Below, piece by piece: positions 6,700 through 32,544 of a DNA stretch of 64,000 nt; position 1 is the first letter of the stretch, and every line of letters begins with the position of its first letter. Under the pieces are notes generated by a model. It was not told the origin of the DNA. It worked only from the letters and a program-made list of their open reading frames with translations, and made no database searches. A program made the position numbers and the translations under genes. The stretch lies in contig NZ_LT896716.1 in NCBI RefSeq assembly GCF_900187405.1, positions 868,001 through 932,000 on the forward strand, given 5' to 3'. This DNA comes from Geobacter sp. DSM 9736. GTDB taxonomy: Bacteria > Desulfobacterota > Desulfuromonadia > Geobacterales > Geobacteraceae.

Positions 6700-6715
6700 A
6701 CAGGTACATATCGGC

Positions 6716-7581: not shown

Positions 7582-7610
7582 ATAACCTCCTTTGATCTTT
7601 GTGGGTAAAT

Positions 7611-7629
7611 TGTCTCATATAAAGTGACA
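7611..7629. promoter_or_regulatory. Possible operator upstream of the RES-Xre pair
   Basis: Imperfect inverted repeat with arms TGTCTC and GTGACA separated by 7 bases, in the short gap between the divergent antitoxin and trbI genes. Position and symmetry suit autoregulation by the antitoxin, and binding here could also affect trbI. This is inference from location only. Confidence 0.35.
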
Positions 7630-7662
7630 TTTGGCAAGATAAACAAAATAAGAGGTGTCGTT

Positions 7663-8094: not shown

Positions 8095-8554
8095 GTGGCT
8101 TTGCATCGCCGTAGTTGCGGCAGTTACTACCGAAACCATAATTCCACGCCATCTCGGCATTATCCTCACTCCGTCTCTCGATCATCGACTGTTCTGGGTG
8201 AACCGGGACCCTCAGCATGTGAAGCGGGGAGAGTACGTCTATTTCGTGGACGAGGAATTGGCAAGGAAGGTTGGGAAACCCGAAGTACCCAACGTCTTCA
8301 AGATCATCCGGTGTGACGAGGGGGATATCCTGAACGTGGACGCCGCGAAGTGCTTTTTCTGCAACGGTGAGTATATCGGCATGGCAAAGGATTATTCCCG
8401 GAAAGGGGAGAAGATGCCGCATTTTGAATTCAACGGCAGAATCCCGCCGGGCTTCATGTTCGTCATGGGCGAGCACAAGGACAGTTACGATTCACGGTAC
8501 TTCGGCCTGGTGGAGAAGAGTCGGGTCGTCGCAAGACTCTACCCGATATTGTGA
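8039..8554 (+). CDS. TraF-like S26 signal peptidase of the conjugation system
   Basis: Inner-membrane serine/lysine peptidase that processes pilin or other transfer proteins. After an N-terminal membrane segment (about residues 19-35) comes LTPSLDHRLFWVN with the probable catalytic Ser46, then KRGEYVYF, then FKIIRCDEGD with probable catalytic Lys88, and a C-terminal GEHKDSYDSRYFGLV box typical of S26 enzymes. It resembles TraF of RP4 and TrhF of R391-type elements rather than the thioredoxin-like TraF of plasmid F. The ATG start overlaps trbI by 56 bases, with GAGGAAGAG upstream. Confidence 0.86.
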   Translation: MKNYFADLCRKILQLRKNRWLCIAVVAAVTTETIIPRHLGIILTPSLDHRLFWVNRDPQHVKRGEYVYFVDEELARKVGKPEVPNVFKIIRCDEGDILNVDAAKCFFCNGEYIGMAKDYSRKGEKMPHFEFNGRIPPGFMFVMGEHKDSYDSRYFGLVEKSRVVARLYPIL

Positions 8555-8565
8555 GGAGAAGGGCA

Positions 8566-8814
8566 ATGCCTATCGAGAGATTCAATCCGCTTCACTACAT
8601 GAACCCCTCCGAGTACACCGGATTCTGGCAGAAGCTCTTCGCCACCTTCCTTTACGGCTTCTGGGGCAGGTTCTTCTTCATTTCGCTCATCGCCCTCGCT
8701 TTCTGGGTCGGGGTACGACAGAGAAATCCGACCTTGGCGGCGCTATGCCTGTTTCTTGCGGCTCTCGTTGCCTACGGCGGCGGTGTCTTGAACCTGATCA
8801 CGTCCCTGATCTGA
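8566..8814 (+). CDS. Small two-helix membrane protein in the transfer operon
   Basis: 82 residues from the ATG at 8566, which has AGGAGAA just upstream; an in-frame GTG at 8551 lacks one. Two hydrophobic helices (about residues 30-47 and 52-75) predict an inner-membrane protein. I do not recognise the family. It sits between the peptidase and a six-helix-like membrane protein, with short gaps on both sides, so a role in the transfer apparatus is likely. Pilin is a weak alternative because of the size and two helices, but there is no obvious long leader. Confidence 0.7.
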   Translation: MPIERFNPLHYMNPSEYTGFWQKLFATFLYGFWGRFFFISLIALAFWVGVRQRNPTLAALCLFLAALVAYGGGVLNLITSLI

Positions 8815-8827
8815 GAGGAGAATAAAG

Positions 8828-9568
8828 ATGTCACGCAGCAGCAATAACACTCAGGATATCATGCCTATCCCTCAGGGGAGCGAGATCCACCCCCGTGGAC
8901 TTCTGGAGGCGATCTCGTACATCGACCAGAATTTCGCGAACGAACTGGGTGGGTGCATCATCCACGCACGCTTTCTGACGACCAAACAGCGGCTGGAGTT
9001 CATGGAAGTCGGTTTCCGGAGCGCCTTCGCCTCTGGATTGGTCTCGGCGCTCCTGACACCGGTGGCCATAGGAGTGATTGAGCGATACATCCCCATGTTC
9101 GGTAATGCCGATCCCTCCCTTTTCGACAAGTTCAGCGCATTCATGCTCGCCCTCGGGTTCTCCCTCGGCTACGCCATCTTCATGGCGAAAACGGCCACCT
9201 GCTACATCGGCAAGTACACCAGGGCGATGATAACGAACCTCCTAGGAGGAATGGCCTTCGGGGCTATCCTCAAGGCGGTGGTAGCCTTCATTGCCTTTCA
9301 CTTCGTCTACTTCAAGGTCCTCTCCGACGGCAACGTGTCGTGGGCCGTCTCCAAGCTCTACCACGCAAGCCTTTCGGAGAAGACGGTAGCGGCAATCTTT
9401 AACTGGGTGCAGGGCTTCAAGAATGTCTTCCTGACATCGGCCTATTTCATCCTGGTCTCTACCGCGATCTTCATTCTGATTCCGCTAATCGCCATGATCT
9501 ACGCCTATTTCCGGAACAGGAAACTGATTGCGGCCGGGTTAATAAACGTTGAAGCATACAAAGGGTAA
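8828..9568 (+). CDS. Multi-spanning membrane protein of the transfer operon
   Basis: 246 residues, ATG with GAGAGGAG upstream. A soluble N-terminus of about 60 residues is followed by about five to six predicted helices (around 66-82, 100-120, 140-160, 200-230) and a short basic tail. I do not recognise a family. It lies directly upstream of traG and 13 bases after the small membrane protein. The position suggests an accessory inner-membrane component of mating-pair formation or surface exclusion; this is inference. Confidence 0.75.
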   Translation: MSRSSNNTQDIMPIPQGSEIHPRGLLEAISYIDQNFANELGGCIIHARFLTTKQRLEFMEVGFRSAFASGLVSALLTPVAIGVIERYIPMFGNADPSLFDKFSAFMLALGFSLGYAIFMAKTATCYIGKYTRAMITNLLGGMAFGAILKAVVAFIAFHFVYFKVLSDGNVSWAVSKLYHASLSEKTVAAIFNWVQGFKNVFLTSAYFILVSTAIFILIPLIAMIYAYFRNRKLIAAGLINVEAYKG

Positions 9569-9580
9569 GCAGTTTCCCGC

Positions 9581-12500
9581 ATGAAACGAAGAACCATTAT
9601 CTCAGCAACGATCCTCCTGATCGTCATTGTTCCCTCTGCCGCTCTGGCCGTCGATTTCGACTACTACGTCTATGGCGGGTTCGATGCGGTAGTCAATGCC
9701 TTCAACAAACTGGCCCTGGTATTCGGGGACAACGGGTACATGTCGTTTTATGCGTTCTCCATCGCTGCGGGAATATTCTTCGGTTGCGTCACCATTGCCG
9801 CCAGAATCCTCGGGGGTGGAAACGGCTCCCCAATGTCGTGGATTGTTCCCTCTCTGGTTGGGATAGGTGTGTACCTGTCTCTTGCCGTCCCGAAGGGAAA
9901 CCTCCATATCTACGACCCGGTGTACAACAAGAACCAGACCATAGGAGGCATACCGAATGGTGTGGTGGCGATTGCCGGAGTACTTAATGCCGTGGAAAGA
10001 GGCTTGGTTGATATCGTCACGACCTCGGGCGATCCGTTGAGTTACGAGAACCAGGCAGGAGGCAAGGGGTTTCTTGGTCTCTACCAGATTTCGAGCCTCC
10101 CACTGTCGGCGGTCAACAGCAACATCGATACCTCGATGCGGAACTACATCAAGGACTGTGTCAGCTACGAGATCATGCGCCCCGGTACGACCCTTACCGT
10201 GGATGCCCTGCGTAAGACCTCAACCGACTTTGCGCCCCTCCTTGCACAGGCTCAAAATCCCTCAGTCTATACGGTCTACTACGACTCGACCACATCGAAC
10301 GGCCAGTCCCTGACCTGTACCGATGCCTGGGCCAACATAAGCGGACAGCTTACGCCGGACAACCTGAAGAACAACATCACCGCTGTCTGCTCAGCTCTCG
10401 GTTACGACCCCAGTAACGCTGCATCCTTGACCCAATGCAAAACTGTCCTGAACAACGTCAACACGGGCGTCGGCCTGGGCGCGGCATCCGTTGATGATTT
10501 CGTGAAGCAGGCTTACATCTCCCAGCGCCTTGATGACATCTTCCGCAGCGGGAATTCCGCTGGTGCTACGAACTACCAGTTTCTTCTCAATGCTTCAGGC
10601 TCCATGAAGGCGGCAAACGAATGGCTGCCCGTTTTGCGGGCGATTCTCACAGCCATAGCGGTCGGGCTGGTGCCGTTCCTGGCCCTCTTTATCCCGACTC
10701 CGATTATCGGCAAGGCTGTCGGTGCCATCTTCGGATTCTTTGTCTGGCTCGCCGCATGGGGCGTCACCGATGCAATCATCCATCAGTTTGCCATCGATTA
10801 TGCGAACCGGACATACCAGTTGGTGCGCCAGAACAATTTGGGGATGGATGCCTTTTACTTTTTCCCGGATCAGACAACCAAGATCCTCGGGATGTTCGGG
10901 ACACTTCGGATGAGCGGCATGATGCTCGCGACAGCTCTGACCGGCATGCTCGTCAAATTCGGCGGGCACGCCATGGCGATGATGGCCGGTTCCCTCTCGA
11001 AGCAGATCCAGTCCGCAGGCAGCCGGGCAGCCCATGAGGTGGAGGACCCTGCCGGCAGGGCTTCATCGATTCAAAGAAATTCCTCCGCTGTGCCGACTCA
11101 GGCTTGGGGCAACGAGCACAGTTTCTGGGCCAGGGGGAACCAGTCCTACCTCGACATGACATCCAAAACCACGGCTTCTAGTGATCTCGTAGACAGTTTC
11201 GGGCTTGGCGGGGCGTCACGGATGATGGCCGATGGCGGAATCGGGAAAACTGTCGGCTTTGGCGGCAAGGGGGCTGCCATGCGGCAGGCGGGGCTGGACA
11301 ACTCTTACGGCCTCAGCATCTTCGACGGAAAAGCCGGGTTGGCACAGTCTGGGGCACTACGTGACGTGATTGACAAGAATTATGGCGGCAATCTGGATTC
11401 CCATGCACAGATGAAAGTGGCGAATGATGCCGCTTTGGGAAAGGTCTTTGGGACTGCCGAAAATTACAAAGGCTTCCTGGAGAAGAACCTCGACAGGAAC
11501 GTCGGCCAACTTGATGGTGAAGTGAAAGCCTACGAAGGAGCCCAGGCGCTGGGGTTCCAGGGGAACTGGCGACAGTTCAATGCATTCCGCTCCGAGATGC
11601 AGGGGCTTGGGGATTACACGAATGCCGCAGCGGTAAACCAGGTGGCCTCGAAATACGGGCTCACGTCAGGCCAGGCGCTACAGATGAAAGCACAGTTCCA
11701 GAATGCAAGGCATCTGTCTGAATCAGCTGAGATGTCGGCTAAGCTTGGTGGAGCGATCAATGCCGGCGCCGAAATGGGAAATGTTGTCGCTGCCGAAAGT
11801 GCAGGGAAGGTTCACGGTGTCTACATGTCCGGTGGCTATGAACACTTCCAGACAATGGCTTCACATGATGTAACTGGCAAAGGCGCACGGTATGACCTGG
11901 TGAGGGGTGCTGCGGACCAGATGGTTGATCGAATAGCGCCTCAGCTGAAGAGCGACCCGGAAATGTACCAGGGAGAGAAGCTGACCGACAAGGGCTTTGC
12001 GCAGATGCAGAAAGCGATGGAGGGGCAGAACATCAATTTCACCACCTCGGACGGCAGGCACACCATGAACGTCGGGATGGATGGTAATGTCGTGAACTCG
12101 AACAGCCAGGGAGTGGTAGCCTCGGGCGACAAGGCCGCTGCCGAGACCCTGAAGCAGGATCTTCGGAAGGCAGGTTTCGGGAAGAATGCAGTGTCCGAGG
12201 TGGATCGTATGATGAAGGCTGGGAAAGGCTTCGCCTATGACATTACCCGGGATCGTGCCGGCAACATCGAATCCTTCTCAATTAACAGGGGAGGGGAGGT
12301 CAACCGGAGAGATATGGCGACATTCCGGGTCGGGCGGGATGCCGAGAGCGTTGATAGGGATGTTCGGACCGTTGATAGGGGACTCCGTGAGACAGTAGGG
12401 AGTTTTATCAAGACGGGATATGAGCATACGGACCTGAATCTTTCTCGGAAAACCGGTGCATACAATGTTTCGGTCGGCGGAAAGGAAATGAAGGTCAACG

Positions 12501-13186
12501 GCGACTGGTATTACGGCCGGAATGAGAAAACAGGCAAGATGGAACTCGTCGGAGGATCTTTCTCGAGCGGTCTTGATAGTTCGGTGCTGATGTACAGCAA
12601 GGACAGGGATGGAGATCTTCATTTTGCGAAGGTTGAAGGAAAGATGGATGCGAGAGGAAACCTGGTTGCAGGGAAAACAACGGACATTACAGAACAGGAA
12701 TTTGTGCAGTTTTCGCAGCATGGCGCTGCAGTTGTGAGTTCACGCGGTGGTGGCGGTGTGATAGCGAGCGTTCGTGCTGATGGGGGAGTAAAGGCTGACT
12801 TCTCGTCAAGGCAGGTAACTGGAACAAGAGTCACGTCAGATCAAAATCTTGCTGGTAGTGCTGCTACCAAAGATTTCACCGAAGGGCGAAGTATTGATGC
12901 CGGCACAGCTGCCACAATGATTGCGATCGGCAGGGATGGATTGCACGAAACTGCTGGGATGGTTGGAGATGTTACAAAGGTGATTGGTCCATATAAGGCA
13001 GCTGTAACACGGCAAGAAGAGACGGTGATGCAGCAAAGCCGAGAGGCAACGGCGGTAGCACGAGAGGCTGAAGCGCGAGTTCAGCGAGGGCTCCAAAAGA
13101 CCGGAAAGATTCTGCAGCATCAGAGCAAAAACTCGCCCCTCCCAAAAAGTGGTGTGCCTGCTCCATCTCGGGGGCCTAAGAGGTAA
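9581..13186 (+). CDS. traG: TraG mating-pair stabilisation and entry-exclusion protein
   Basis: Large F-type TraG (1201 residues; plasmid F about 940). The N-terminal third is the TraG_N membrane region: leader-like helix (about residues 5-23), helices near 50-75 and 90-105, a Cys-containing periplasmic loop, then helices around 350-395 and 430-470. The remaining 700 residues are soluble, Gly/Ala/Gln-rich and helical, as in the exclusion-recognition tail of TraG, which in F and R391 systems is read by the entry-exclusion protein of the recipient. It closes the plus-strand transfer run; traF(thioredoxin-like)/traH partners are not in this window. Confidence 0.9.
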   Translation: MKRRTIISATILLIVIVPSAALAVDFDYYVYGGFDAVVNAFNKLALVFGDNGYMSFYAFSIAAGIFFGCVTIAARILGGGNGSPMSWIVPSLVGIGVYLSLAVPKGNLHIYDPVYNKNQTIGGIPNGVVAIAGVLNAVERGLVDIVTTSGDPLSYENQAGGKGFLGLYQISSLPLSAVNSNIDTSMRNYIKDCVSYEIMRPGTTLTVDALRKTSTDFAPLLAQAQNPSVYTVYYDSTTSNGQSLTCTDAWANISGQLTPDNLKNNITAVCSALGYDPSNAASLTQCKTVLNNVNTGVGLGAASVDDFVKQAYISQRLDDIFRSGNSAGATNYQFLLNASGSMKAANEWLPVLRAILTAIAVGLVPFLALFIPTPIIGKAVGAIFGFFVWLAAWGVTDAIIHQFAIDYANRTYQLVRQNNLGMDAFYFFPDQTTKILGMFGTLRMSGMMLATALTGMLVKFGGHAMAMMAGSLSKQIQSAGSRAAHEVEDPAGRASSIQRNSSAVPTQAWGNEHSFWARGNQSYLDMTSKTTASSDLVDSFGLGGASRMMADGGIGKTVGFGGKGAAMRQAGLDNSYGLSIFDGKAGLAQSGALRDVIDKNYGGNLDSHAQMKVANDAALGKVFGTAENYKGFLEKNLDRNVGQLDGEVKAYEGAQALGFQGNWRQFNAFRSEMQGLGDYTNAAAVNQVASKYGLTSGQALQMKAQFQNARHLSESAEMSAKLGGAINAGAEMGNVVAAESAGKVHGVYMSGGYEHFQTMASHDVTGKGARYDLVRGAADQMVDRIAPQLKSDPEMYQGEKLTDKGFAQMQKAMEGQNINFTTSDGRHTMNVGMDGNVVNSNSQGVVASGDKAAAETLKQDLRKAGFGKNAVSEVDRMMKAGKGFAYDITRDRAGNIESFSINRGGEVNRRDMATFRVGRDAESVDRDVRTVDRGLRETVGSFIKTGYEHTDLNLSRKTGAYNVSVGGKEMKVNGDWYYGRNEKTGKMELVGGSFSSGLDSSVLMYSKDRDGDLHFAKVEGKMDARGNLVAGKTTDITEQEFVQFSQHGAAVVSSRGGGGVIASVRADGGVKADFSSRQVTGTRVTSDQNLAGSAATKDFTEGRSIDAGTAATMIAIGRDGLHETAGMVGDVTKVIGPYKAAVTRQEETVMQQSREATAVAREAEARVQRGLQKTGKILQHQSKNSPLPKSGVPAPSRGPKR

Positions 13187-19628: not shown

Positions 19629-21158
19629 ATGCCTTTTCTCGATTGGGTTAACAAAACCCAGGCCGTGGGTACGTCGGTCGAAACTCCCTATCATTTACTG
19701 CAATTTCAGGCCGCCTTTGGAGATGCAGCTGCTGACAATTTGCTGATTCAAGGCGACAACCTCAAGGCGCTGAAAGCTCTGCTGCCGTTTTACCGCTCGC
19801 AGGTAAAGTGTATCTACATCGACCCCCCATACAACACCCAGTCGGCTTTCACCCACTACGACGACAAGCTGGAACATTCACAGTGGCTGTCTATGATGTA
19901 TCCCCGGCTTGTGCTACTCCGGGATCTTCTGGCAGAAGACGGAAGCATCTGGGTTTCTATTGATGACCGCGAAGCCCATTATCTGAAGGTTATGATGGAT
20001 GAGATTTTTGGGCGTGGGGCTTTCATCGCTTCGAATGTCTGGCAAAAGCGATATTCTCGCGAAAACAGAGAATCTATCGGTGATGTCCACGAATATATAA
20101 TGGTCTATGCAAAATCACCAGATAGGTTCAAGTCAGCTCGGAATCGAGTCCCGTTAGATGAGGCACAAGCTAAGATTTATCGCAATCCTGATAACCCTAA
20201 AGAGACTGATCCAACAAAAAGGTGGCGTGGTCTCCCAATGACAGCGCAAGGATATCGGCCAAATCAAATGTACACAATTACTGCCCCCAACGGGAAAACC
20301 CACGTTCCTCCTGAAGGGCGTTGTTGGTCGACCATTGAATCTGAATTCTTGAAACTTAAAGACGCAGGCCGAATTTATTGGGGTAAAGACGGTAACGCTC
20401 AACCTAGCGTCATAAGATATTTATCGGAAGTTGAAGGTTTGGTTCCTTGGACGTGGTGGCCTCATGATGATGTCGGGCACACTGACGAGTCAAAAAAAGA
20501 ATGTAATCTTCTTTTTGGAGCTGACGTTAGTTTCGGTACTCCTAAGCCAGAAAGACTTCTTCAAAGAATTCTCCATATTGCACCGAACCCCGGCGACCTC
20601 GTCCTCGATTCATTCCTCGGTTCCGGCACTACGGCAGCGGTTGCCCATAAAATGGGGCGACGCTGGATTGGTGTCGAAATGGGGGAACATGCGGTATCCC
20701 ACTGTATGCCCCGGCTGGAAAAAGTGATTGCCGGCGAGCAGGGAGGAATCTCCAAGGCCATCGATTGGCAAGGGGGCGGTGGCTTCGGCTTCCACACGTT
20801 GGGAGAACCGGTTTTTGATGCCGATGGCGGCATTCATCCGAATGTCCGTTTTGGGCCTTTGGCAGCTTATCTCTGGCATTTTGAAACAGGAGACGCCGCC
20901 AGGCAGGAGTTCACCACACCTTTTCTCGGTGTCCATAACAATACTGCCTATTACCTGCTGTACAACGGCATTCTCGGTGACCGCCGCCCGCAGGGAGGCA
21001 ATGTGCTGACCTCTACTGTGCTGGCATACCTTAACGAGACCTTTCCCCATGATGGCCCCCGGGTGATCTATGGCGAGACTACCCGCCTGGGAGAGGCCCG
21101 GCTGCGAGAAGCCAACATTGTTTTCAAACAAATTCCCTATGACATAAAGGTCCGGTGA
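19629..21158 (+). CDS. mod: Type III restriction-modification DNA methyltransferase
   Basis: 509-residue beta-class amino-methyltransferase. The catalytic DPPYN is at residues 65-69, before the SAM-binding DSFLGSGTT (327-335), the beta order used by type III Mod subunits. The target recognition region lies between them. ATG with AGGATAATAC upstream. The stop overlaps the res start (GTGA). It is somewhat shorter than EcoP-type Mod (about 640). I looked for simple repeats of phase-variable mod genes and saw none. Confidence 0.9.
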   Translation: MPFLDWVNKTQAVGTSVETPYHLLQFQAAFGDAAADNLLIQGDNLKALKALLPFYRSQVKCIYIDPPYNTQSAFTHYDDKLEHSQWLSMMYPRLVLLRDLLAEDGSIWVSIDDREAHYLKVMMDEIFGRGAFIASNVWQKRYSRENRESIGDVHEYIMVYAKSPDRFKSARNRVPLDEAQAKIYRNPDNPKETDPTKRWRGLPMTAQGYRPNQMYTITAPNGKTHVPPEGRCWSTIESEFLKLKDAGRIYWGKDGNAQPSVIRYLSEVEGLVPWTWWPHDDVGHTDESKKECNLLFGADVSFGTPKPERLLQRILHIAPNPGDLVLDSFLGSGTTAAVAHKMGRRWIGVEMGEHAVSHCMPRLEKVIAGEQGGISKAIDWQGGGGFGFHTLGEPVFDADGGIHPNVRFGPLAAYLWHFETGDAARQEFTTPFLGVHNNTAYYLLYNGILGDRRPQGGNVLTSTVLAYLNETFPHDGPRVIYGETTRLGEARLREANIVFKQIPYDIKVR

Positions 21159-23854
21159 GTATGTTCAAACTGAAAGATTATCAGGAACAATCGCTGGCAG
21201 CCCTCGACAACTTTTTCCGGCAACTGCGCATAGGCGGGCTGAATGCTGCGTGGCAAAAATGCGCTCCGTTGCAAGAGAAGCAGGGGCAATCCTGGCAGGT
21301 GCCGTACAATTCCGAGGCGCTTGGTGATGTACCGGCAGTCTGTGTGCGGATACCGACCGGCGGCGGTAAAACCTTTCTGGCTGCCCATGCGGTGGCGCAT
21401 ACCGGCAAGACCCTGCTCGACACCGATGCCCCGGTTGCATTATGGCTGGTTCCATCCGACGCCATTCGTTCCCAGACCTTGGCGGCCCTGTCAGTCCCGC
21501 GCCATCCCTGCCGCATGGCGCTGGCGGAATATTTCGGCGAGCGGATTCGGGTCTGCGCTCTGGATGATCTGGTAACCGTCGGGCCGCAGGATGTGGGCCA
21601 ATCGGCTATCGTCGTCGTGGCGACAATCCAGTCGTTCAACGTGAAGGAGAAAACCCAGCGCAACGTCTATTCATTTGATGAAAACTTTGCCCGTCATTTC
21701 CAGGGGCTCACCCCGCAACAGGAAGAACGGTTGGACAAGGTGACTGAAGCTGATCTTGCCGCGCAACCGTACCTGACCGCGTCCGATCTGGGGCGGGTCA
21801 AATCATCCCTTGCCAACTGGCTGACCCTGCACAAACCAATAGTGGTTGTCGATGAAGCTCACAATAACCGGACCGATCAGGCGTTCCGCACCTTGAAAAG
21901 CCTGCATCCTGCTTGTGTGATCGAGCTAACGGCAACTCCTGCGGACAATAGCAATGTCCTGTACCACGTCGGCGCCGGAGCCTTGCAGCGTGAGGACATG
22001 ATCAAGCTGCCGATTGTCTTGATGGAGCACCCGACCGGCTGGAAGGATGCGGTTCGAGACGCAATCCTCACCAGAGACCGTCTGGAAATCCTTGCTGCAA
22101 AGGAGTCGGATTACATCCGACCGGTGTTGCTGTTTCAGGCTGAACCGAAGAATGGCGAAGTCAACGTTGAGAAGCTTTTGGAGCATCTTGTCAGTCCGGA
22201 TGGGGAGAAACTGGAGAGAAAGCAGATTGCAGTTGCGACCGGAGACCAGAAGGAACTGGATGGTATTGTGCTTGCCGATCCTCTCTGCCCGATCCGCTAT
22301 GTCATCACGGTGGAGGCGTTGAAAGAAGGGTGGGATTGCCCTTTTGCCTACGTGCTCTGCGGTCTGCAGGATATGAAGAGTTCGAAAGACGTTGAACAGA
22401 TTCTGGGGCGGGTATTGAGGATGCCGTATGCCCGGCCTCGCCGGCAGATTGAACTGTCAAAAGCCTATGCCCACATGGTTTCAAGCGTTACGGCGCGGGT
22501 TGCCGATCAGTTGGCCGACCGTCTGGTGAACAACATGGGATTCGAGCCCTATGAAGCTGCCCAGGCTATTGCTCCCGCTCAAACAGCATTGCCGCTGCCG
22601 CAGGGTGGCGAACAGGCTCGCCCCAAGCCTGCCGAAGCTGTTATTACACTTCCGGCAGCACCGACTCAGTCCGTTCCTGAAGACCTGAAACAGACAATTG
22701 AGATTCGGCCAACTACCGGCGGGGCCACGGCAATCGTTCGCGGAGAGCTTACCGAGCAGGTTGAAGAGTTCCTGCTGACTGCTTGCAATGCCAAGCATCA
22801 GCAGACTATTAAGGATTCCATCGAGCGTGAACGGACCCGTCAGGCAGCACTACTGGCTCCGTCGGCAAGAGGCGTTCGTTTTGCGCCACTGCCGCAACTC
22901 TGCCTTGATTGGGATGGAGAACTGCAGCCGGTCGAAAAGCGTATTCTCTCCGAACTGGGAGAGTTCGATCTTTTCAGTTCGCCCATTGCCCTGGCCGGAT
23001 TTACGATCAGGGAGCGTGGCACCGCATTCGAAATCGATCTCGATGGTGGCAAGGTTGTTTACGAGCTGGCAAGCGCAGAACAATTGCATCTGAATGAAAT
23101 TGCCACCCATGCCACTGAAAATGATCTTATCCGTTGGCTTGATCGGGAATGCCGCCAGAAGGATGTTGGCCAGGCGGAGTTGCTCAAGTGGTTATTGGCA
23201 GTTGTTCGTCACTTGCAAGCCGATCGTGGATTCAGCCTGACGGCCCTGGTTCGCGCCAAGTATCCGCTTGCTGAAGCGATCCGCCGCGAGATTGACCGCC
23301 GCAGAGATAATGCTGTTGCTTCGGGCTTTCAGAAGTCCTTGCCAGGATTCCTGGCAGCTCCCCAATTGGAAGACAGTTTCAGCTATGCATTCAGCTTTCA
23401 CCCTACCCATTACCCAGCCCGGCCGCCGTACTATTCCGGACGCTACCGCTTCAAAAAGCACTATTACCCGGTAATCCATGATCTTCGTGAAAAGCGGGCC
23501 GATGGTACTCCGGCAGAAGAGTTTGTGTGTGCCCGGGCGCTGGACATGCATCCGGCTGTCAAGCATTGGGTGCGCAACGTGGAGAAGGAAGACCGATTCT
23601 CCTTCTGGCTACCGACCTCCACGGATTACTTCTATCCCGATTTTGTCTGTGAACTGACTGACGGGCGTGTTCTGGTTGTCGAATACAAGGGGGAGCCCTA
23701 CAAGACCAATGACGATTCACGGGAGAAATCCCAGGTTGGACATCAATGGGAAAGTTCCAGCAACGGGAAATGCGTATTCCTGTTTGCTGTTCAGCAGGAT
23801 GAGCAAGGCCGAAATGTCGAGCAGCAGATAGAATGTGCAATTCGGAAGCGGTAA
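21155..23854 (+). CDS. res: Type III restriction enzyme Res (helicase-nuclease)
   Basis: About 899 residues from GTG 21155 (overlaps the mod stop; ATG 21161 is an alternative). SF2 helicase motifs: PTGGGKT (motif I, about 68-74), VVVDEAHNN (motif II, about 230), ELTATPA (motif III), EALKEGWDCP and QILGRVLRMPYARP (motifs V and VI). A C-terminal PD-(D/E)xK-like endonuclease is suggested by YFYPDFVCEL and LVVEYKGEPYK (about 825-850). It acts with Mod: recognition by Mod, ATP-driven sliding, cleavage by Res. Confidence 0.9.
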   Translation: MSMFKLKDYQEQSLAALDNFFRQLRIGGLNAAWQKCAPLQEKQGQSWQVPYNSEALGDVPAVCVRIPTGGGKTFLAAHAVAHTGKTLLDTDAPVALWLVPSDAIRSQTLAALSVPRHPCRMALAEYFGERIRVCALDDLVTVGPQDVGQSAIVVVATIQSFNVKEKTQRNVYSFDENFARHFQGLTPQQEERLDKVTEADLAAQPYLTASDLGRVKSSLANWLTLHKPIVVVDEAHNNRTDQAFRTLKSLHPACVIELTATPADNSNVLYHVGAGALQREDMIKLPIVLMEHPTGWKDAVRDAILTRDRLEILAAKESDYIRPVLLFQAEPKNGEVNVEKLLEHLVSPDGEKLERKQIAVATGDQKELDGIVLADPLCPIRYVITVEALKEGWDCPFAYVLCGLQDMKSSKDVEQILGRVLRMPYARPRRQIELSKAYAHMVSSVTARVADQLADRLVNNMGFEPYEAAQAIAPAQTALPLPQGGEQARPKPAEAVITLPAAPTQSVPEDLKQTIEIRPTTGGATAIVRGELTEQVEEFLLTACNAKHQQTIKDSIERERTRQAALLAPSARGVRFAPLPQLCLDWDGELQPVEKRILSELGEFDLFSSPIALAGFTIRERGTAFEIDLDGGKVVYELASAEQLHLNEIATHATENDLIRWLDRECRQKDVGQAELLKWLLAVVRHLQADRGFSLTALVRAKYPLAEAIRREIDRRRDNAVASGFQKSLPGFLAAPQLEDSFSYAFSFHPTHYPARPPYYSGRYRFKKHYYPVIHDLREKRADGTPAEEFVCARALDMHPAVKHWVRNVEKEDRFSFWLPTSTDYFYPDFVCELTDGRVLVVEYKGEPYKTNDDSREKSQVGHQWESSSNGKCVFLFAVQQDEQGRNVEQQIECAIRKR

Positions 23855-23870
23855 TTTAAGGAGATAACTT

Positions 23871-25139
23871 ATGATAGCTCATGATCCTCTTCGTGTTGCA
23901 CTTGAGATTCGAGAGCAATTAGCTTCCGAAAAAAGGAAATTTGCTTTCTTTTTTGGAGCAGGAACATCTATGTCAATTGGTGTTCCTGGTATTACTGCTT
24001 TAACACAACAAATATCAAATGAACTAGATGAACCTTATAAAACTCTGTTCAACTCAATTAAAGAAGAACTAGGTAACAACGCAACTGTAGAATTGGTTCT
24101 TGATAGGATTAGAGCAATCAGAGAACTAATGAATAATTCTGAAACAAAAGCATATGACGGTTTAGTTGGTGCAACAGCAGCTATAAATTTAGATATTTCT
24201 GTTTGTCAGCTTATATCGAAAAAAGTGCGAAGTATTGATTACTCAAAAATTCAACCACAATATAAACTTTCTCAATGGATTCATTCATTACATACCAGTA
24301 GGTATTGGCCAGTCGAGATATTTACTACTAACTACGATTTACTTTTTGAAGAGGCTATGGAGCAGGCTAGTGTCCCATTTTTTGATGGATTTATCGGATC
24401 AGTTAATCCTTTCTTCTCACCTGAGTCGGTGGAGGCAGACGATTTAAAATCTGAGTGTTATGCATACCCACCAAAATCTTGGACGAGAATCTGGAAGATA
24501 CACGGCTCAATTAATTGGATAATGACAACTAATCCACTAGATAAAAAGAAACGGATTAGCCGACTTTCTTCTTGTGAGCCAAATCCTGGTGATGAGTTGA
24601 TGATTTTCCCTTCGAGAGACAAATATACCGAGTCTAGAAAATTGCCATTTCTTACATATCAGGACCGGCTCAGAAGATTTGTATCAACGGGAGAAGCCTT
24701 GCTGGTCGTATCTGGATATAGTTTTTTCGATGAACACCTCAATGAAATATTATTCCAAGGCCTAAGGTCTAACCCTAGGCTTTCAATAATAGCATTAATG
24801 TTTGGTGATCCTGTCGAAGTAGAAGGTGAAACGAAACTGAAATTGTCGGAAACTCTTTGTGGTTTCGGTAAATTATACAAAAACTTATCTGTACTGGGGC
24901 CTGATAAAGCATGTATAGGGGGGATTGTTGCGCCATGGGGCGAACCATCCAGAAAAAAGAAAGACACAGAGCTGTGGCCATTCTGGGATAGTGAGAATAC
25001 ATATTTCACTCTCGGGAATTTCTCTTCTTTTGCTGATTACTTGGAATTGTTCATAGGATTTAGAGTTAAGCACGGGTTTGAACCTTCTGTTCAATTACTA
25101 TCAGAAGCAGAATCACAAGGACAATCCAATGCAAACTGA
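23871..25139 (+). CDS. SIR2-domain protein, probable NAD-consuming defence effector
   Basis: 422 residues, ATG with AAGGAGATAACTT upstream. SIR2 motifs: FFFGAGTSMSIG (27-38), FTTNYDLLFEE (about 150-160), WKIHGSINW with the likely catalytic His (about 207-215) and VSGYSFFDEHLNEIL near residues 280-295. Defence SIR2 proteins cleave NAD+ on infection, and SIR2 next to HerA is a known anti-phage pair. It follows res by 16 bases and overlaps herA by 11. The gene is clearly more AT-rich than res and mre11, a sign of modular acquisition. Confidence 0.9.
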   Translation: MIAHDPLRVALEIREQLASEKRKFAFFFGAGTSMSIGVPGITALTQQISNELDEPYKTLFNSIKEELGNNATVELVLDRIRAIRELMNNSETKAYDGLVGATAAINLDISVCQLISKKVRSIDYSKIQPQYKLSQWIHSLHTSRYWPVEIFTTNYDLLFEEAMEQASVPFFDGFIGSVNPFFSPESVEADDLKSECYAYPPKSWTRIWKIHGSINWIMTTNPLDKKKRISRLSSCEPNPGDELMIFPSRDKYTESRKLPFLTYQDRLRRFVSTGEALLVVSGYSFFDEHLNEILFQGLRSNPRLSIIALMFGDPVEVEGETKLKLSETLCGFGKLYKNLSVLGPDKACIGGIVAPWGEPSRKKKDTELWPFWDSENTYFTLGNFSSFADYLELFIGFRVKHGFEPSVQLLSEAESQGQSNAN

Positions 25140-26919
25140 TGTCACTTTTCTTGGTGTAGTGCGAAGAGTAGTCGGGGCAAAGGTTTTTGTTGAAATTTCT
25201 CAAAATATTCCTTCTGCCAATCCTATAATACACGGAAGAGTTTATCGAATAGGTCAGATTGGCTCATTTGTTAGAATTCCTCTGGGTTTTTTAAATCTCT
25301 TTGGTGTTGTCTCAATGGTAGGTGCTTCGGAATTATCCCACCCTGAAGAAAATGATGTGCCAGTGCCTATAGGTCAGCGGTGGATAGAAGTACAGCTTGT
25401 CGGCGAGTCCTACGGACATGAAGGGTTTCAGCGAGGGGTCAGTGTATTCCCTACACTTGATGATGAAGTTCATATTGTTGCAGAAGATGATTTGTCAATA
25501 ATATACGGGAATACAGGCCCTTCTATGATTGAAATTGGCACTCTAGCAGCTTCAGAGAGCCTGCCTGCATTTGTAGATTTAAATAAAATTGTTACAAGGC
25601 ACGCAGCAATAGTAGGCTCAACTGGCAGTGGAAAATCAAACACAGTTGCTGCACTACTAAGGGCATTAACTTCAAGTTCCTATCCAAGTGCACGTATTGT
25701 TGTAATTGATCCGCATGGTGAATATGCATCTGCCTTAGAGGGTAAATCTAAGGTGTATTCAATAGGAAATGAGACTAACCCACTGTTTATACCTTATTGG
25801 GCTATGTCATTTGATGAACTTGGATGGTTTTTAATTGATAGAAAATCAGCTAGTGAATCTGTCCAAGATTCAGCCCTACGTGATGTTGTTTTCGATATGA
25901 AAAAAGCATTCTGTGCAATAACAGGCCAAGTTGACGCTGATGAAATTACAGTGGATTCACCAGTGCCGTTTTCTATCAAAAAGCTATGGTATCACTTTGA
26001 TCGCAAGGATAAAGTTACTTATCTTGATATGGCAAGAACTCAAGAGGCTCTTATACAAGAAGGTGATCCTGAAACGTTAACCTCAGCATCTTTTCAAGCT
26101 CCTGGGGCTGGTAGCAGTGCGCCTTTTAAGCCAACAATGAGCTTGGGGATGGGGAGTTATCTCAATAAGATTTTAGGTCGCTTAAAGGATAGAAGATTTG
26201 ACTTTTTACTCTCGCCAGGTGACTTTGATGGATATACCCATGATCTTGATGTCTTGGTAAAGGAATGGGTTGATCATGAGCATGCGATTACTGTTCTTGA
26301 TCTTGGTGGGGTGCCATTCGAAATAATGGATCTAGTTGTTGGGTTGCTGACGCGCATCCTGTACGAAAATATGTTCTGGGGAAGAGACTTGCCGGGAGTA
26401 GGTCGAGACCGGCCATTATTGATGTTTTACGAAGAAGCTCACGCCTATTTGCCTAAAGGTGGCACTGCGCAGTTCGTTGCTGGTTATGCAAGTAGAGCTG
26501 TCAGAAGGATATTTAAAGAGGGAAGAAAATACGGGATTGGTGCAATTGTAGTAAGTCAAAGACCATCAGAATTGGATGAAACTGCTCTTTCACAATGTGG
26601 GACATTTATTGCTTTGCGCCTATCCAATAGTGATGATCAAGGCAGAATCAAATCTATTGTCCCTGATTCACTTGGTGGACTTGTTGATTTGCTGCCGGCA
26701 CTAAGGACCGGAGAGGCACTTGTTCTTGGTGAATCTGTCAAAATCCCTAGTCGAGTTCGTTTGCCGCTTATTGAACCACGTCCTAAGAGCGACGATCCTG
26801 ATGTTTCGGAGTGCTGGGCAAAAGCACGGGATGCTATGCCGCATTATAAACTAACAATTAATGGCTGGCGACGGCAAAAGATGCCGAAATTAGATCAAGG
26901 AGGAAGTGACAATGATTAG
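25129..26919 (+). CDS. herA: HerA/FtsK-type DNA translocase ATPase
   Basis: 596 residues from ATG 25129 (AAGGA seven bases upstream). N-terminal beta-barrel HAS domain (about 1-130), then RecA-like ATPase with GSTGSGKS (163-170), IDPHGEYAS, Walker B with MFYEEAHAYLPKG (about 430-442) and an arginine/sensor stretch SQRPSELDETALSQC. HerA forms hexameric rings that translocate DNA; in archaea it works with NurA, Mre11 and Rad50, in bacteria with SIR2 or other effectors. It overlaps sir2 (11 bases) and the KTSC gene. AT-rich like sir2. Confidence 0.92.
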   Translation: MQTDVTFLGVVRRVVGAKVFVEISQNIPSANPIIHGRVYRIGQIGSFVRIPLGFLNLFGVVSMVGASELSHPEENDVPVPIGQRWIEVQLVGESYGHEGFQRGVSVFPTLDDEVHIVAEDDLSIIYGNTGPSMIEIGTLAASESLPAFVDLNKIVTRHAAIVGSTGSGKSNTVAALLRALTSSSYPSARIVVIDPHGEYASALEGKSKVYSIGNETNPLFIPYWAMSFDELGWFLIDRKSASESVQDSALRDVVFDMKKAFCAITGQVDADEITVDSPVPFSIKKLWYHFDRKDKVTYLDMARTQEALIQEGDPETLTSASFQAPGAGSSAPFKPTMSLGMGSYLNKILGRLKDRRFDFLLSPGDFDGYTHDLDVLVKEWVDHEHAITVLDLGGVPFEIMDLVVGLLTRILYENMFWGRDLPGVGRDRPLLMFYEEAHAYLPKGGTAQFVAGYASRAVRRIFKEGRKYGIGAIVVSQRPSELDETALSQCGTFIALRLSNSDDQGRIKSIVPDSLGGLVDLLPALRTGEALVLGESVKIPSRVRLPLIEPRPKSDDPDVSECWAKARDAMPHYKLTINGWRRQKMPKLDQGGSDND

Positions 26920-27127
26920 AGAACCTGTTCAATCATCAAATTTGGCGAGTGTGGGCTACGAGATTGAAACATCTACGTTGGAAATTGAGTTTCTTAACGG
27001 AGGTATTTATCAGTACTTCCAGGTACCACAAGAAATTTTTGAGAGTTTAATGACTGCTGGTTCAAAAGGCACATTTTTCCATCAGTTTATCCGAAGTGCC
27101 GGATACCCCTACTCGAAAGCAGGGTAA
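26912..27127 (+). CDS. KTSC-domain protein
   Basis: 71 residues from ATG 26912, with AAGGAGGAA upstream and an 8-base overlap with herA. Almost the whole protein is the KTSC domain: SSNLASVGYE, LEIEFLNGGIYQYFQVP, and SKGTFFHQFIR before a PYSK end. KTSC domains are small nucleic-acid-related domains often found with nucleases or lysyl-tRNA synthetase; function unproven. Its placement between herA and mre11 suggests a role in the DNA-processing complex. Confidence 0.85.
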   Translation: MIREPVQSSNLASVGYEIETSTLEIEFLNGGIYQYFQVPQEIFESLMTAGSKGTFFHQFIRSAGYPYSKAG

Positions 27128-27131
27128 GCCG

Positions 27132-28370
27132 TTGATAGATTTGCGCTTCATCCACACTGCCGACATTCACCTTGGCAAAACCTACCGCACCTCAGTCGGT
27201 GAAGCCGCACGCTACGAAGACTTTTTTCGTATGCTCGGCAGTATTGTGTCTGATGCCATTGCCGAGAAAGTAGATTTTGTCCTCATCGCTGGCGATCTAT
27301 TCCACACCGGCCAGATTCTCCCCCGCACCTTTGCTCGTACAATCGAATCTCTCCAACCTCTGAAGGATGGCGGTATCCCATGCATCGCCGTGGAAGGAAA
27401 CCACGACTGGATTCACCGTCGTGACAGCATTTCATGGATGGAGGCGCTGTCACAGATGGGCTATATCCATCTCCTCCGTCCTACTCGAACTGAGAACGGT
27501 GGCTACCGTTTCGATCCGTTCGATCCCGAAACCGGGATGGGCGGACATATCGAGATCAAAGGACTGAACATCTATGGACTCGGCTACATCGGTGCCCAAG
27601 CAGGCGTGCATGTGCCGCGCATCTGTGAAGCGGTGGAGTCGAAAAACAACATTCTCCTTTTCCATGTCGGGATTTGGACATACTCGCCCGTTGAGATTGG
27701 TAACATGCAGCCGACAGAGGCTCTGCCGCTCGCCGATGTCTTTGACTACGTGGCCCTGGGCCATGGCCACAAACCATATGTCATCGAGACTCCGGAAGGT
27801 CGTCCCTACGCTTTCAACCCTGGCTCACCGGAACGGGTGAATTTCGGCGAAGAAGGGTACGACAAAGGGTACTGGCTTGTCACTGTTGATGACGGTAACT
27901 ATGCAACGGAATTCCGGCAGACTGACCCTCGTCCGATGAAGTCTATCTCAATGAGTCTGGACGGAGCAGAAAGTGTTGATCAGGCCTTGAACCATTTGAG
28001 GGATCAACTGGCAGAAAAGCTGAACGGGGTGGGTGAGCGGCCACTGCTCGAGATGAAAGTCACCGGCCGCGTCCGGTTCCATCCTTTCGAGCTGGGGCGC
28101 GAACGGCTTCGGTCTCTTGTCGAAGAGCTGGCCGATCCACTACACGTCGAGATCAAGAACCACCTGTCCCTGGTGACAGGACGAGGGCTGGAAGAAACTG
28201 AACGACGGAACCTGGAAGAGATTGAGCGTGATGTATTGCATGAACTGATCGGTGCCAACAGTGCGTGGAAAGGGAAAGAGGATGAACTCGTATCGCTGGC
28301 AACTGCCATCCGCGACCAGGTGCTGAAAGGCGACACTGAGGGAGAAGAGCTCTTTGCTCTCTTGAAATGA
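27132..28370 (+). CDS. sbcD: Mre11/SbcD-type nuclease
   Basis: 412 residues from TTG 27132, which has AGGG at good spacing and starts right at MIDLRFIHTADIHLG; the GTG at 27096 would overlap the KTSC gene. Metallophosphatase motifs are all present: DIH (11-13), AGDLFH (54-58), GNHD (89-92), LLFHVG and ALGHGHK. Mre11 subunits are Mn-dependent exo/endonucleases that act on DNA ends together with Rad50. The stop overlaps the rad50 start (ATGA), showing an obligate pair. Confidence 0.92.
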   Translation: MIDLRFIHTADIHLGKTYRTSVGEAARYEDFFRMLGSIVSDAIAEKVDFVLIAGDLFHTGQILPRTFARTIESLQPLKDGGIPCIAVEGNHDWIHRRDSISWMEALSQMGYIHLLRPTRTENGGYRFDPFDPETGMGGHIEIKGLNIYGLGYIGAQAGVHVPRICEAVESKNNILLFHVGIWTYSPVEIGNMQPTEALPLADVFDYVALGHGHKPYVIETPEGRPYAFNPGSPERVNFGEEGYDKGYWLVTVDDGNYATEFRQTDPRPMKSISMSLDGAESVDQALNHLRDQLAEKLNGVGERPLLEMKVTGRVRFHPFELGRERLRSLVEELADPLHVEIKNHLSLVTGRGLEETERRNLEEIERDVLHELIGANSAWKGKEDELVSLATAIRDQVLKGDTEGEELFALLK

Positions 28371-28912
28371 TGCAGATACTTTCGATCCATCTTAAGAATA
28401 TCAAGTCCCATCGTGACACTGAACTCGTATTCTCTCGTGGTATCAATGTTCTCTCCGGGCCGAACGGTGTTGGGAAGAGCACCGTTTTCGAGGCCATCGG
28501 GTATGCCCTCTTTGGTGTCGATGCGCGGGATTTCGTTTCCAATGTTGATCGCTTTCTCACAATTGGCGCCAAACGGGGAGAAATATCCGTCACCTTCGCC
28601 GCCAGTGATGGCGACAGTTACCGCGTAACACGGACTGTGGGGACACCGGCGACATGGCGGCTGGCAAAGGACATGGGCGGCATTTTCGAGGTCGAGGACC
28701 ATGCCGGGGGCGAGGAGACTGAAGAACGGATTCGGGAGCTTCTCGGGCTCTCCAAGGGAAGATCCCTGGCCGAGCAGTTCAAGCTGGTGATCGGGCCTTT
28801 CCAGAGCGAATTCCTCGGGCCATTTGTCAAGAAACAGACCACGAAGCGAAAGGAAGATTTTGACGAGATCCTCGGGATCGACTCCTGGCGCAAGACTTTT
28901 GACGGCACGAAG
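28367..28912 (+). pseudogene. sbcC: Rad50/SbcC-like ATPase, 5' part before the IS insertion
   Basis: Codons 1-182 of a Rad50/SbcC-like gene. Walker A GPNGVGKST lies at 31-39 and the signature-loop context RSLAEQFKLVIGPFQSEF at about 142-159. The frame then runs into an IS3 element after GAAG (28909-28912), the first copy of a four-base target duplication. Without the insertion it would continue in frame at 30118. The fragment alone lacks the coiled coil, hook and second ATPase half, so it cannot form a Rad50. Confidence 0.9.
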
Positions 28913-28926
28913 CGTAAGCTTCCCTG

Positions 28927-29788
28927 TCAAGTAGACAGTTGGAAAGTAGAGTTTCCGGTGTAGTTTTCCATGTATTCGGCTGGCGTCATGTCACCGAGCG
29001 AGTCGTGAGGACGCAGCTCGTTGTAATCGTTCATCCACCAGTACGTGATCTCCCGGACCTCCTTGAGGTTGCGGAAGAGATATAGCGATAGGACCTCCTC
29101 GCGGTAGGTGCGGTTGAAGCGTTCGATGTAAGCGTTCTGGTTCGGTTCGCCCGGCTGAATGTACTGGATAATTATTCCTGCTGAGTCGGCCCACGCAACG
29201 AACTCGCCAGATAAGAATTCAGGGCCGTTGTCGGTTCGCAGCACTTCTGGTAAGCCGCGCTCAACGCGCAGCCGCTCGAACACGCGTATCAGGCGTTTGC
29301 CGGTAATTGAAGTGTCGATCTCGACGGCAAGACACTCCCGGTTGAAGTCATCAATGACGTTGAACGTTCTGAAGCGGTTACCGGCATACAGCGTATCGCT
29401 CATAAAATCTGCCGACCATACTTGGTTCGGCTGCTGTGGCACCAGTAGAGGCTGTTTCACCCTTTTTGGCAGCCTTCTCTTCGCCCGACGCTTCTGGTTC
29501 AGCCGAAGGTTGCAGTAGATCCGGTAGACACGCTTGTGGTTCCAGAGGTGACCCATACGGCGCAATGCCCGGAAACATTTCCAGAACCCCCACCTGGGGT
29601 GGCGATCAATCAGGGTGTTGAGCGCCGAAATCACTTCCTGGTCGGCTTCTGAGGCACAGACTGTGGGTCGGTAGTAGGCCGCACGAGCAAGGCCGACACA
29701 GCGGCAACTGCGCTGGATCGAGAGCCTGTGCTGAGCGATGAGATAAAAGACGGCTTCTCTTTTCTCGGACGGCCTCAGAGCTTTTTTT
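28927..29788 (-). CDS. IS3-family transposase OrfB (DDE integrase), made by -1 frameshift
   Basis: The catalytic frame follows the slippery A7G (29781-29788 on the plus strand) and reads ALRPSEKREAVFYLI before the first internal start at 29634. DDE residues are visible: WSADFMSD (first Asp), RTDNGPEFLS (second Asp) and AYIERFNRTYREE (Glu), then the RPHDSLGDMTPAEY tail typical of the IS407 group. It is probably expressed only as the OrfAB fusion. Confidence 0.9.
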
Positions 29789-30041
29789 CGATCAGGTCTT
29801 TCAGCGCACGGTTCTCAAGCGCAAGATCGGCGTACATCCGCTTGAGACGGCTCATTTCCGCTTCCATCTCCTTCATGCGCTTGAGATCGGAGGCATCCAT
29901 GCCGCCGTACTTCGATTTCCAGTTGTAGTAGGTGGTGTCGCTGATCCCGTGCTTGCGGCAGACGTCCTTTACCAGCATTCCGGACTCAGCTTCCTTGAGA
30001 ATCGTGATGATCTGGGTTTCAGTGAAACGGGCTTTCTTCAT
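29775..30041 (-). CDS. IS3-family transposase OrfA
   Basis: 88 residues from ATG 30041 (CAGGAGGT upstream). MKKARFTETQIITILKEAE opening and a helix-turn-helix CRKHGISDTTYYNWKSKYGG, followed by a leucine-zipper-like helix (ALKDLIEKKL). Binds the element ends and forms the N-terminal part of the OrfAB fusion. Confidence 0.92.
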   Translation of the reverse strand: MKKARFTETQIITILKEAESGMLVKDVCRKHGISDTTYYNWKSKYGGMDASDLKRMKEMEAEMSRLKRMYADLALENRALKDLIEKKL

Positions 30042-30117
30042 TCGAACCTCCTGGCGCTTTAGAATGCCAGAAAGCTCTACTTTTTTCATGTCTCATTATT
30101 GGGGAAGCTTACGGAAG

Positions 30118-32544
30118 GAGCTGGGAAACATTATCAAGGCGAAGCTCACAAACCTGGAGACAGATATTGCCGGCAAAGAGGATCGTATCGCCTGTCTCCC
30201 GCAGCGACAGGAAGAACTCAAAACCCTGGTGCTGGATGAGGAAAAGAAGGGAAGCGAGCTGAAAGGGGTTACCGCGGATCTCGTCGTCGTAGTCGAACTG
30301 CTTCAAACCCTTGAGGAAAAGAAAAATGGAGTCGAGCGACTTCGCAGCGAAATTGTCCAGGTGAAACAAAGTATCGTTTCTGGGAGCGAGCACATAACCT
30401 CTCAAAAGGCGTTGGTCGAACAGGCTGAGACGGCTGCCCGAACCGCTGAACAGGCCCGGCCCGGCAAAGAACGCTACGAGTCCGTCGAAAAGAGGCTTCA
30501 GGAGCTCCGTGAGCGTGAGAAGACGAAACAGGCACTGGATAAGGAAATCAATGATCTAAACCTTCAGGCAACTTCGGCACGTCAGTCCGCCGACCACGAA
30601 GAAAGCGAAGCCGCTCTCCAGGAGGAGAAGCTCCAGGAGGATCGAAAAACGGCCTTAGCCGAAGAGAACGATCTGCGGCAGAACCTGACCAAACTGATTG
30701 AGGAAGAAACGCGCTGTCAGTCCGCAGTCGATCAGGTGAAGAGAATCGAAGAGCAGTTCCGGAATCTTCCGCTGGTGAAGATCGATACCCACATGCCATA
30801 CCTCCGGGTAACTCTCGGGAGACTGGTGGAACTCGATAGTGGTATTCATGAAAAGGAAAGCCAACTCCTGGCCGAGCCGGAATGGAAGGCTGCCGCCGCG
30901 ACACTGGAGCCTCTTCGCAAAGAACGTGAGATCCTGCTCGCAGAGAAAGCCCGGTTCTTGGGGAGAGTGGCCGGCTTGACAGAGGGGGAAGAGAAACTGC
31001 TTGAAGGCAGTTGTCCGTTCTTCGGTGAACAATGTCGGAACATGGATGGCAAACAGTCTCTGGAGGTCTTTCCGGAGCGAAGACTGCAGATCAAAAGTGA
31101 GATCGCGACTATCGAGGCAGCCATTTCCGCAATGGAAATCAAGATTGCTGTAGCAGAGGCTGCAGGAAAAGAGATGGAAAAATTCCGGTTGCTTCGTGCC
31201 GAGATTGCCAGTCTGGAAAAGGAGCGGAACGCGAAAGATAAAGAGCGGGAAGAATACCTCCGACAACTAGACCCTGCCGGCATCGCCGCAACCTTTAGTG
31301 TCTGGGTTGAAGAGCACCAACTTGACGATTGTCGGAAGACGGGTGAAACGCTTAAGGCCGGCGTCTTCTCGGGAGAACCATCCGCACAGCTTGTCACCCT
31401 CGAAGGATGGGAAACCTGCTGTCATGATGTGGCGTCTGCGGTAACGACTATCATCGGCAACATGATGACCACTGCGGAGACGCCACTTGCAGCTGTCAGG
31501 ACAGACAGGGCGAAGGCTGATGCCAGAATCCATGAGCTTGAGCGTCGCTTACAGGAGTTCTCTGAAGCGGGTAAGCGTAACGAGCAAAGAAAGAATGCCG
31601 CTAAACTCCAACGCGAGACGGCCGAGAAGACGGAACGCGAGAAACAGCAGAAAGTGGAATTGCTGGCTGCGTATCAAGACGTTGAGACCGGTATTCGCGA
31701 AGCCGAGGAGGAACGTCGTCTTTCACAGCCCGACCACGAACGTTACCTTCAGGCCGAGCCGATAGCGAAAGACCTGCCGAAGCGGCAGGAAACGCTGGAG
31801 AAGTACAAGAAGCGTCTTGCAGATCTGGAGCGGGATCAGGCTGCAAAAGAGAGTAGTTTGCAAGAAGTAGAGAAGGATTACTCACCCGAGAGCCATGCCG
31901 AACAGCAACAGAAGAAGGAGACGCTGCAGGCATCCGAAGCGACTCTGAAGGAGAGCCTGAAAAACCTTAACCAGTACCGGCAACGTCTGGCGGCAGGAAT
32001 TGCTGAACTGGAGAAGGTTCAGGAGGAGATTCGCAAGAAGCAAGAAGAGGCGCGGGATCTCCGAAAAAAGGAAGAGCTGGTCAAGTTCCTCCGCAACAAG
32101 GTCTTCAAGAACGTTTCGGCTCAGCTTTCCGAGCGATTCCGGGAAGAGATCACCCTCCGTGCCGACCGCATCTACCGAACAATTTCAGAAGCAGACGAGG
32201 AACTGATCTGGGGTGACGACTACAGGATCATCCTTCGTGACATGGTTAACGGCGAAGTGCGTGAGCGCTCAGATGACCAGCTTTCCGGTGGGCAGACCAT
32301 GAGCGCCGTGGTTGCACTACGCTTGGCCCTGTTGCAAACCATCGGCGCCCGGGTAGCTTTTTTCGATGAGCCTACCTCCAATCTCGACGTATCACGGCGC
32401 GAGAACCTCGCCCAAGCTTTCCGTGCCATAGATCATGGGAAGGAGGAGGTGACCGATCACTGGTACGACCAGCTCTTCCTCATCAGCCATGATGTGGCCT
32501 TCACCGAGATTACCGATCAGATGATACAGTTGGGGGAGCAGTAA
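30118..32544 (+). pseudogene. sbcC: Rad50/SbcC-like ATPase, 3' part after the IS insertion
   Basis: Codons 183-990 of the interrupted Rad50-like gene. Long heptad coiled coils flank a central hook-like CPFFGEQC (residues 481-488 of the restored protein), which has six residues between the cysteines instead of the usual two. The C-terminal ATPase half has the ABC signature QLSGGQTMSAVVAL, Walker B VAFFDEPTSNLD and the D-loop/H-loop SHD. Restored length (990) is normal for SbcC. The frame before this point (29932-30117) is IS sequence. Internal starts could give a fragment but not a working ATPase. Confidence 0.9.

Follow-up and report, generated by a model that had tools for sequence, protein, structure and literature searches.

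We describe an insertion sequence of the IS3 family that interrupts a Rad50-like gene in a 64,000-nucleotide stretch of the Geobacter sp. DSM 9736 genome, referred to here as the window. The window corresponds to positions 868001-932000 of the host genome, which is closed in one contig of 3.96 Mb and 99.99% complete. Very likely, a Rad50-like gene on a defense island beside conjugation genes was hit once, at the base of its coiled coil, by an autonomous IS3-family element that duplicated 4 bp of target; this copy of the gene was lost as a result, and the insertion is recent and took place in an earlier host or came from a donor that has since disappeared. The parts of the element and of the interrupted gene are as follows.

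28913..30113, minus strand (that of the transposase): IS3-family insertion sequence, 1,201 bp
28913..28924, plus strand: terminal inverted repeat CGTAAGCTTCCC, with 12/12 bases matching the other end
30102..30113, minus strand: terminal inverted repeat of the other end, exact reverse complement of CGTAAGCTTCCC
28909..28912: target duplication GAAG, left copy
30114..30117: target duplication GAAG, right copy
29775..30089, minus strand: OrfA, with an HTH_Tnp_1 domain, ending at an A7G heptamer
28927..29793, minus strand: OrfB frame, with an rve integrase core and an intact D-D-35-E motif
28367-32544, plus strand: rad50-like gene, whole interrupted span
28367..28912, plus strand: N half of the rad50-like gene, 182 residues, with the Walker A lobe and the first turns of the coil
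30118..32544, plus strand: C half of the rad50-like gene, 808 residues, with the coiled coil and the signature and Walker B lobe

A first-pass annotation of this DNA had reported inverted ends, GAAG on both sides, and transposase frames inside, all of which are exact to the base. Its call of an IS3 element in a rad50-like gene is also borne out, as OrfB scores 238.4 bits against the IS3 transposase model NF033516 and passes the cut-off of 160; OrfA alone gives a partial match of 56.8 bits to the same model. The DDE triad of OrfB is complete, with a gap of 35 between the second D and the E. OrfB lies in the -1 frame relative to OrfA, and the heptamer at the end of OrfA appears suited to -1 frameshifting. 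The element thus resembles the IS3 family in its two frames with a -1 slippery A7G, its helix-turn-helix OrfA, its rve OrfB with D-D-35-E, its inverted ends, and its duplication of 4 bp, against 3-5 bp for the family, and it differs in its outermost bases, which are CG...CG in 7/7 copies and not TG...CA. The TG...CA bases are typical of the family without being defining, and exceptions are known. As judged from these sequence features, the element is an autonomous and structurally complete IS3-family member.

A DNA search with the element found matches in 44 of 147 genomes, its own genome counted. The termini CGTAA(A/G)CT(T/C)CCC, or close variants, are common to the seven full-length copies compared, of which six come from other genomes and the seventh is the present one, and because these copies have the same termini, the ends of the element are fixed independently of the duplication. 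An exact 4-bp duplication flanks three of the seven: GAAG here, AATC in L018, and TTCG in L019. On plasmids, relatives of the element occur in Pseudomonas and Xanthomonas, where they are annotated as IS3 family; they are 68% identical and span at least 80% of its length in five records.

Joining the two flanks by script (28912 to 30118) yields a single frame of 990 residues and a stop, with zero internal stops and no other damage, which confirms the restored frame that the first-pass annotation had proposed. The predicted empty-site junction reads FDGTK followed directly by ELG, the sequence that the closest intact relative also has. Identity to this relative is 95% in the N part and 85% in the C part, and its two parts are directly adjacent. 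We then took 66 residues of this relative spanning the insertion point as a site probe and tested it on 82 related loci, which are not wholly independent (L060 and L155, whose reading frames mirror each other, are taken as the same contig, and one genome contributes two contigs). The site is gapless in 78 of the 82, and the remaining four (L106, L108, L112, and L114) are short contigs without the N-terminal part, so that a search for relatives with a different empty-site frame left the earlier claim standing. The split of the probe is unique to the window, where residues 1-32 and 32-66 lie 1.2 kb apart. The 870-aa frame listed for the C half (29932-32544) begins within the element and hence does not mark the start of the gene. 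Among the related loci, L035 (G028) shows a separate pattern: its mre11 and rad50 matches are both broken up into overlapping segments that occupy different frames, and about 1 kb separates the two genes, reflecting either decay or errors in draft sequence.

By DNA comparison, the Geobacter genome itself holds a single copy of the element, and it has one rve match, which lies within this element. OrfA matches genome-wide amount to one strong hit, in the element, and one marginal hit in another frame, of 296 codons. The element is therefore the only IS3-type element or transposase in this closed genome, which speaks against a simple view of it as active in this strain. An assembly artifact has a negligible chance of explaining the interruption, since the genome is one nearly complete contig, the duplication is exact, and the element has no other copy here that could have misled the assembly into a false join. 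Transposition in the IS3 family proceeds by copy-out, with the donor copy staying in place. Because such transposition leaves its donor behind and no second copy is present, the jump was probably not from elsewhere in the present genome; the element probably arrived already inserted in the DNA of an earlier host, or its donor has since been lost.

As it stands, the reading frame of the N half continues into the element and stops at 28963 after 16 element-derived residues. The product would be a 198-residue N fragment carrying the Walker A half-site without the signature and Walker B half. We modeled the structure of the N-terminal 240 residues of the closest relative, with a mean predicted local distance difference test (pLDDT) score of 77, a predicted template modeling score of 0.56, and a P-loop stretch below a pLDDT of 60. 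A single helix spanning residues 171-239 holds the insertion site at 182/183; the insertion point is thus 12 residues from the start of the first coiled-coil helix and lies between Walker A and the signature and Walker B motifs. The model thereby puts the cut in the coiled-coil base, directly past the Walker A lobe. Rad50 heads rank first in a Foldseek search with the model, at template modeling (TM) scores that are modest overall (0.4-0.5 on the query).

This position raises the alternative of a split but working Rad50, whose halves would be made as separate polypeptides and then reassemble. The cut is near that of solved two-chain Rad50 heads (1ii8 A/B and 3qkr A/B, with N chains of 149-203 residues, compared with 182 native residues here), and neither half shows decay. 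The lack of expression signals for the C half argues against it: we found no sigma-70-like promoter in 28600-30500, and we judged none of the twelve in-frame ATG, GTG, or TTG codons in 29932-30700 to be served by a suitably placed ribosome site. A start at 30229, the nearest within native sequence, would cost 37 coil residues. We consider a working split protein very unlikely. The C half would instead be poorly translated and this Mre11-Rad50 complex would not form, and the insertion has very probably switched off this Rad50-like copy.

The first-pass annotation also called the insertion young. No stop or frameshift occurs across 2,970 coding bases, and neither half of the gene carries any other damage. 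Given that 3.8% of substitutions create a stop, and taking the indel-to-substitution ratio as 0.05-0.2, the 95% bound set by this absence of lesions is a loose one, from up to 1.2% neutral divergence (indel ratio, 0.05) to 0.5% (indel ratio, 0.2). We also compared the ratio of nonsynonymous to synonymous substitution rates (dN/dS), which is 0.05 for the N half and 0.16 for the C half between the window and L041, and 0.10 and 0.15, respectively, between L041 and L042. Lineage-unique changes in the C half number 51 amino-acid versus 68 synonymous in the window and 36 versus 42 in L041. Used as a clock, relaxed selection gave no signal in the dN/dS and unique-change comparisons, which are insensitive. 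That the insertion is recent relative to the pace of gene decay is weakly supported. What holds of the claim of youth is that no decay is seen; the bound reaches no further than 0.5-1.2% neutral divergence, and there is no second copy from which the element could have jumped.

A less recent origin is an unlikely alternative, in which the gene was broken before the island arrived and has since drifted for a long time unnoticed. The lack of a sibling element in the genome implies that the insertion probably predates arrival, and the lesion test permits about 1% neutral divergence, whereas 2,970 coding bases free of stops and frameshifts speak against a long drift. Several further points weigh against a recent, inactivating insertion by a duplicating IS3-family element, the reading that we prefer. 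Four of the seven compared copies (L017, L020, L021, and L022) lack a duplication, a pattern that rearrangement of some copies would fit. The 0.5-1.2% bound depends on the assumed indel-to-substitution ratios (0.05-0.2). Synonymous divergence (dS) to the nearest relative is 0.5-1.1, so recently ended selection would leave no trace. Insertion in an earlier host is indistinguishable from entry on a vector that was later lost, and the loss of function is deduced rather than measured.

From left to right, the window carries TraN-, TraU-, and TraG-like genes, a GmrSD-like gene, a type III restriction-modification-like pair, SIR2, HerA, the Mre11-like gene, the split Rad50-like gene, a WYL gene, and Fic and HipA genes. 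The neighboring features are listed below.

34-13186: TraN-, TraU-, and TraG-like conjugation genes
19629..23854, plus strand: type III restriction-modification-like pair (Mod and Res), immediately upstream of SIR2
23871..25139, plus strand: SIR2-like gene, overlapping herA, best PADLOC match SIR2
25078..26919, plus strand: herA-like translocase gene of the anti-phage HerA type, best PADLOC match HerA
27096..28370, plus strand: mre11-like metallophosphatase gene, overlapping the rad50 start, Metallophos at 58 bits
32569..33552, plus strand: WYL-domain regulator gene, 24 bp downstream of rad50

The locus is a defense island adjoining conjugation genes. In the mre11-like frame, similarity starts only at residue 16, and the real start may be further in. 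Polarity from the inserted element possibly influences expression of the WYL regulator. We considered an integrative conjugative element, given the Tra-like genes at the left end, but the window contains neither a tyrosine integrase nor a tRNA gene that would mark its borders; of the six tyrosine integrases that the genome has, the closest is some 50 kb past the right end of the window. A search of 72,556 plasmid records for the Rad50 part returned four, all haloarchaeal; identity stayed below 30%, and the matched part did not exceed 44% of the query.

The family to which the interrupted gene belongs is related to Mre11-Rad50 and SbcCD. As in those systems, a metallophosphatase gene is followed by a Rad50-like ATPase gene, and the N lobe has the Rad50 fold. 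The ATPase architecture is present, with AAA_23 at the N end, a weak SbcC_Walker_B match below its cut-off, and both lobes aligning to 3aux. The proteins differ in falling below the curated cut-offs: the ATPase, scored on the intact relative L041, reaches 111.6 of 700 for Rad50 and 47.5 of 478.5 for SbcC, and the metallophosphatase scores 101.3 of 600 for Mre11 and 70.3 of 77.65 for SbcD. No PF04423 zinc hook match was found in four relatives, and the empty-site product has no CXXC; because the CXXC zinc hook is missing, we file the gene as Rad50-like and not as Rad50 or SbcC. In the middle of the protein, alignment columns 481-488 hold an invariant C-P-F-F-x-E-x-C (C-x6-C) in four relatives, which may be an alternative hook. 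Synonymous distances within the pair run in opposite directions, being 1.10 (window to L041) and 0.49 (L041 to L042) for mre11, and 0.47 and 0.97, respectively, for the C half of rad50. This suggests that mre11 and rad50 may have different histories, with recombination within the pair.

Across 78 named loci with this Rad50, Mre11 is present in 70 and several of the others are truncated. SIR2-HerA, sought within the available stretch of each locus, many of which are short, is present in 2/78. Because most occurrences lack SIR2-HerA in the stretch, the pair is primarily an Mre11-Rad50-like family. The Geobacter genome contains a second, intact Mre11-Rad50 pair at about 1.847-1.851 Mb (Mre11, 78% identical; Rad50, 55% identical over the C part), whose neighbors among the four genes scanned there are phospholipid methyltransferase-like and multicopper-oxidase-like genes. 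This paralogous pair may cover the lost activity.

The first-pass annotation had further proposed that the defense system may be off, or switchable by precise loss of the element. Because SIR2 and HerA, which are adjacent upstream of the insertion, are both intact and a second intact Mre11-Rad50 pair is present, in a family found mostly without SIR2-HerA, the evidence does not establish that defense is off. Switching finds no support either. For phase variation of defense, precise loss of the element would have to restore the gene often enough, and it would indeed yield a normal product, as the frame at the empty site is flawless and the duplication is preserved. However, any clean insertion shows a perfect frame and a duplication, copy-out transposition of the IS3 family keeps the donor copy, precise loss is rare and host mediated, and SIR2 and HerA are uninterrupted. 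We regard a reversible switch as highly improbable and retain the reading of a single, inactivating insertion.

The SIR2 and HerA genes resemble anti-phage SIR2-HerA systems in their adjacency and their best PADLOC matches; they differ in scoring below the NCBIfam cut-offs (72.4 of 500 and 287.3 of 850) and in being followed by Mre11-Rad50. Known SIR2-HerA systems act without Mre11-Rad50. At an E value of ≤1e-40, the window HerA has matches in 22 of the 395 genomes that make up the phylum sample, with its own genome among them. We inspected 20 of the 23 other HerA places, and Mre11 and Rad50 follow SIR2-HerA in three (L153, L155, and L160); at least three of the other 17 (L149, L159, and L162) end less than 1 kb past HerA. 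Including Desulfoprunum benzoelyticum (L068), whose four-gene cluster is intact, the order SIR2-HerA-Mre11-Rad50 (23871-32544 in the window) is present in four further lineages. The L160 pair is very divergent (24% and 30%), and its Mre11 gene was confirmed as Metallophos.

We considered that the four-gene clusters form one lineage and rejected it on an Mre11 tree of 74 rows, which excludes L059 (short) and L060 (taken as the L155 contig) and does not include loci without a tblastn hit. The clusters do not group in this tree and require 3-5 changes. The four-gene label is hardly clustered either, since 42 of 500 shuffles were as low, and L160 forms a very long branch of unsure placement. The distribution fits a repeated association of Mre11-Rad50 with SIR2-HerA, which may reflect function or defense-island traffic.

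Two loci carry related arrangements. In L155 (4850-8317; Candidatus Desulfaltia, a metagenome bin), herA is broken about 25-30 codons past Walker A by an IS3-type rve transposase gene; we found no convincing end pair with a duplication there, and herA has a further frame break, so this is not a clean case. In L034 (12549-14708; G009), the gene immediately upstream of Mre11-Rad50 encodes a 719-aa protein with a HerA domain (DUF87, 35.8 bits), and the SIR2 of the window is absent.

Within the literature searched, which was judged mainly from titles and abstract openings and excluded subscription papers, we found no description of the bacterial order SIR2-HerA-Mre11-Rad50. In archaea, herA and nurA are linked with rad50-mre11, and the Mre11, Rad50, and HerA proteins interact and are reported to co-precipitate in Sulfolobus (PMC2288612). 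The present cluster resembles that arrangement in bringing HerA, Mre11, and Rad50 genes together and differs in having SIR2 beside HerA and no NurA among the genes scanned here. A further report describes a bacterial Mre11-Rad50 as a phage defense against the hairpin-ended phage N15 (PMC12624138), and by analogy a defense role of the Mre11-Rad50-like pair itself is plausible. Tentatively, and with low confidence, the locus could be a composite defense system in which an archaeal-type HerA-Mre11-Rad50 DNA-end module has a SIR2 effector replacing NurA. Mre11-Rad50 would sense or process the ends of invading DNA, and HerA and SIR2 would respond; the system would have been assembled several times from different pairs, and the IS3-type hits in rad50 here and in the Candidatus Desulfaltia herA would be repeated disarmings of a costly system.

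The event itself is ordinary, as accessory genes are often interrupted by elements. It nevertheless provides a clean natural knock-out of one component of SIR2-HerA-Mre11-Rad50 and thereby asks whether Mre11-Rad50 belongs to that defense system. It also calls for caution, in that counts of gene content could score this broken cluster as complete.

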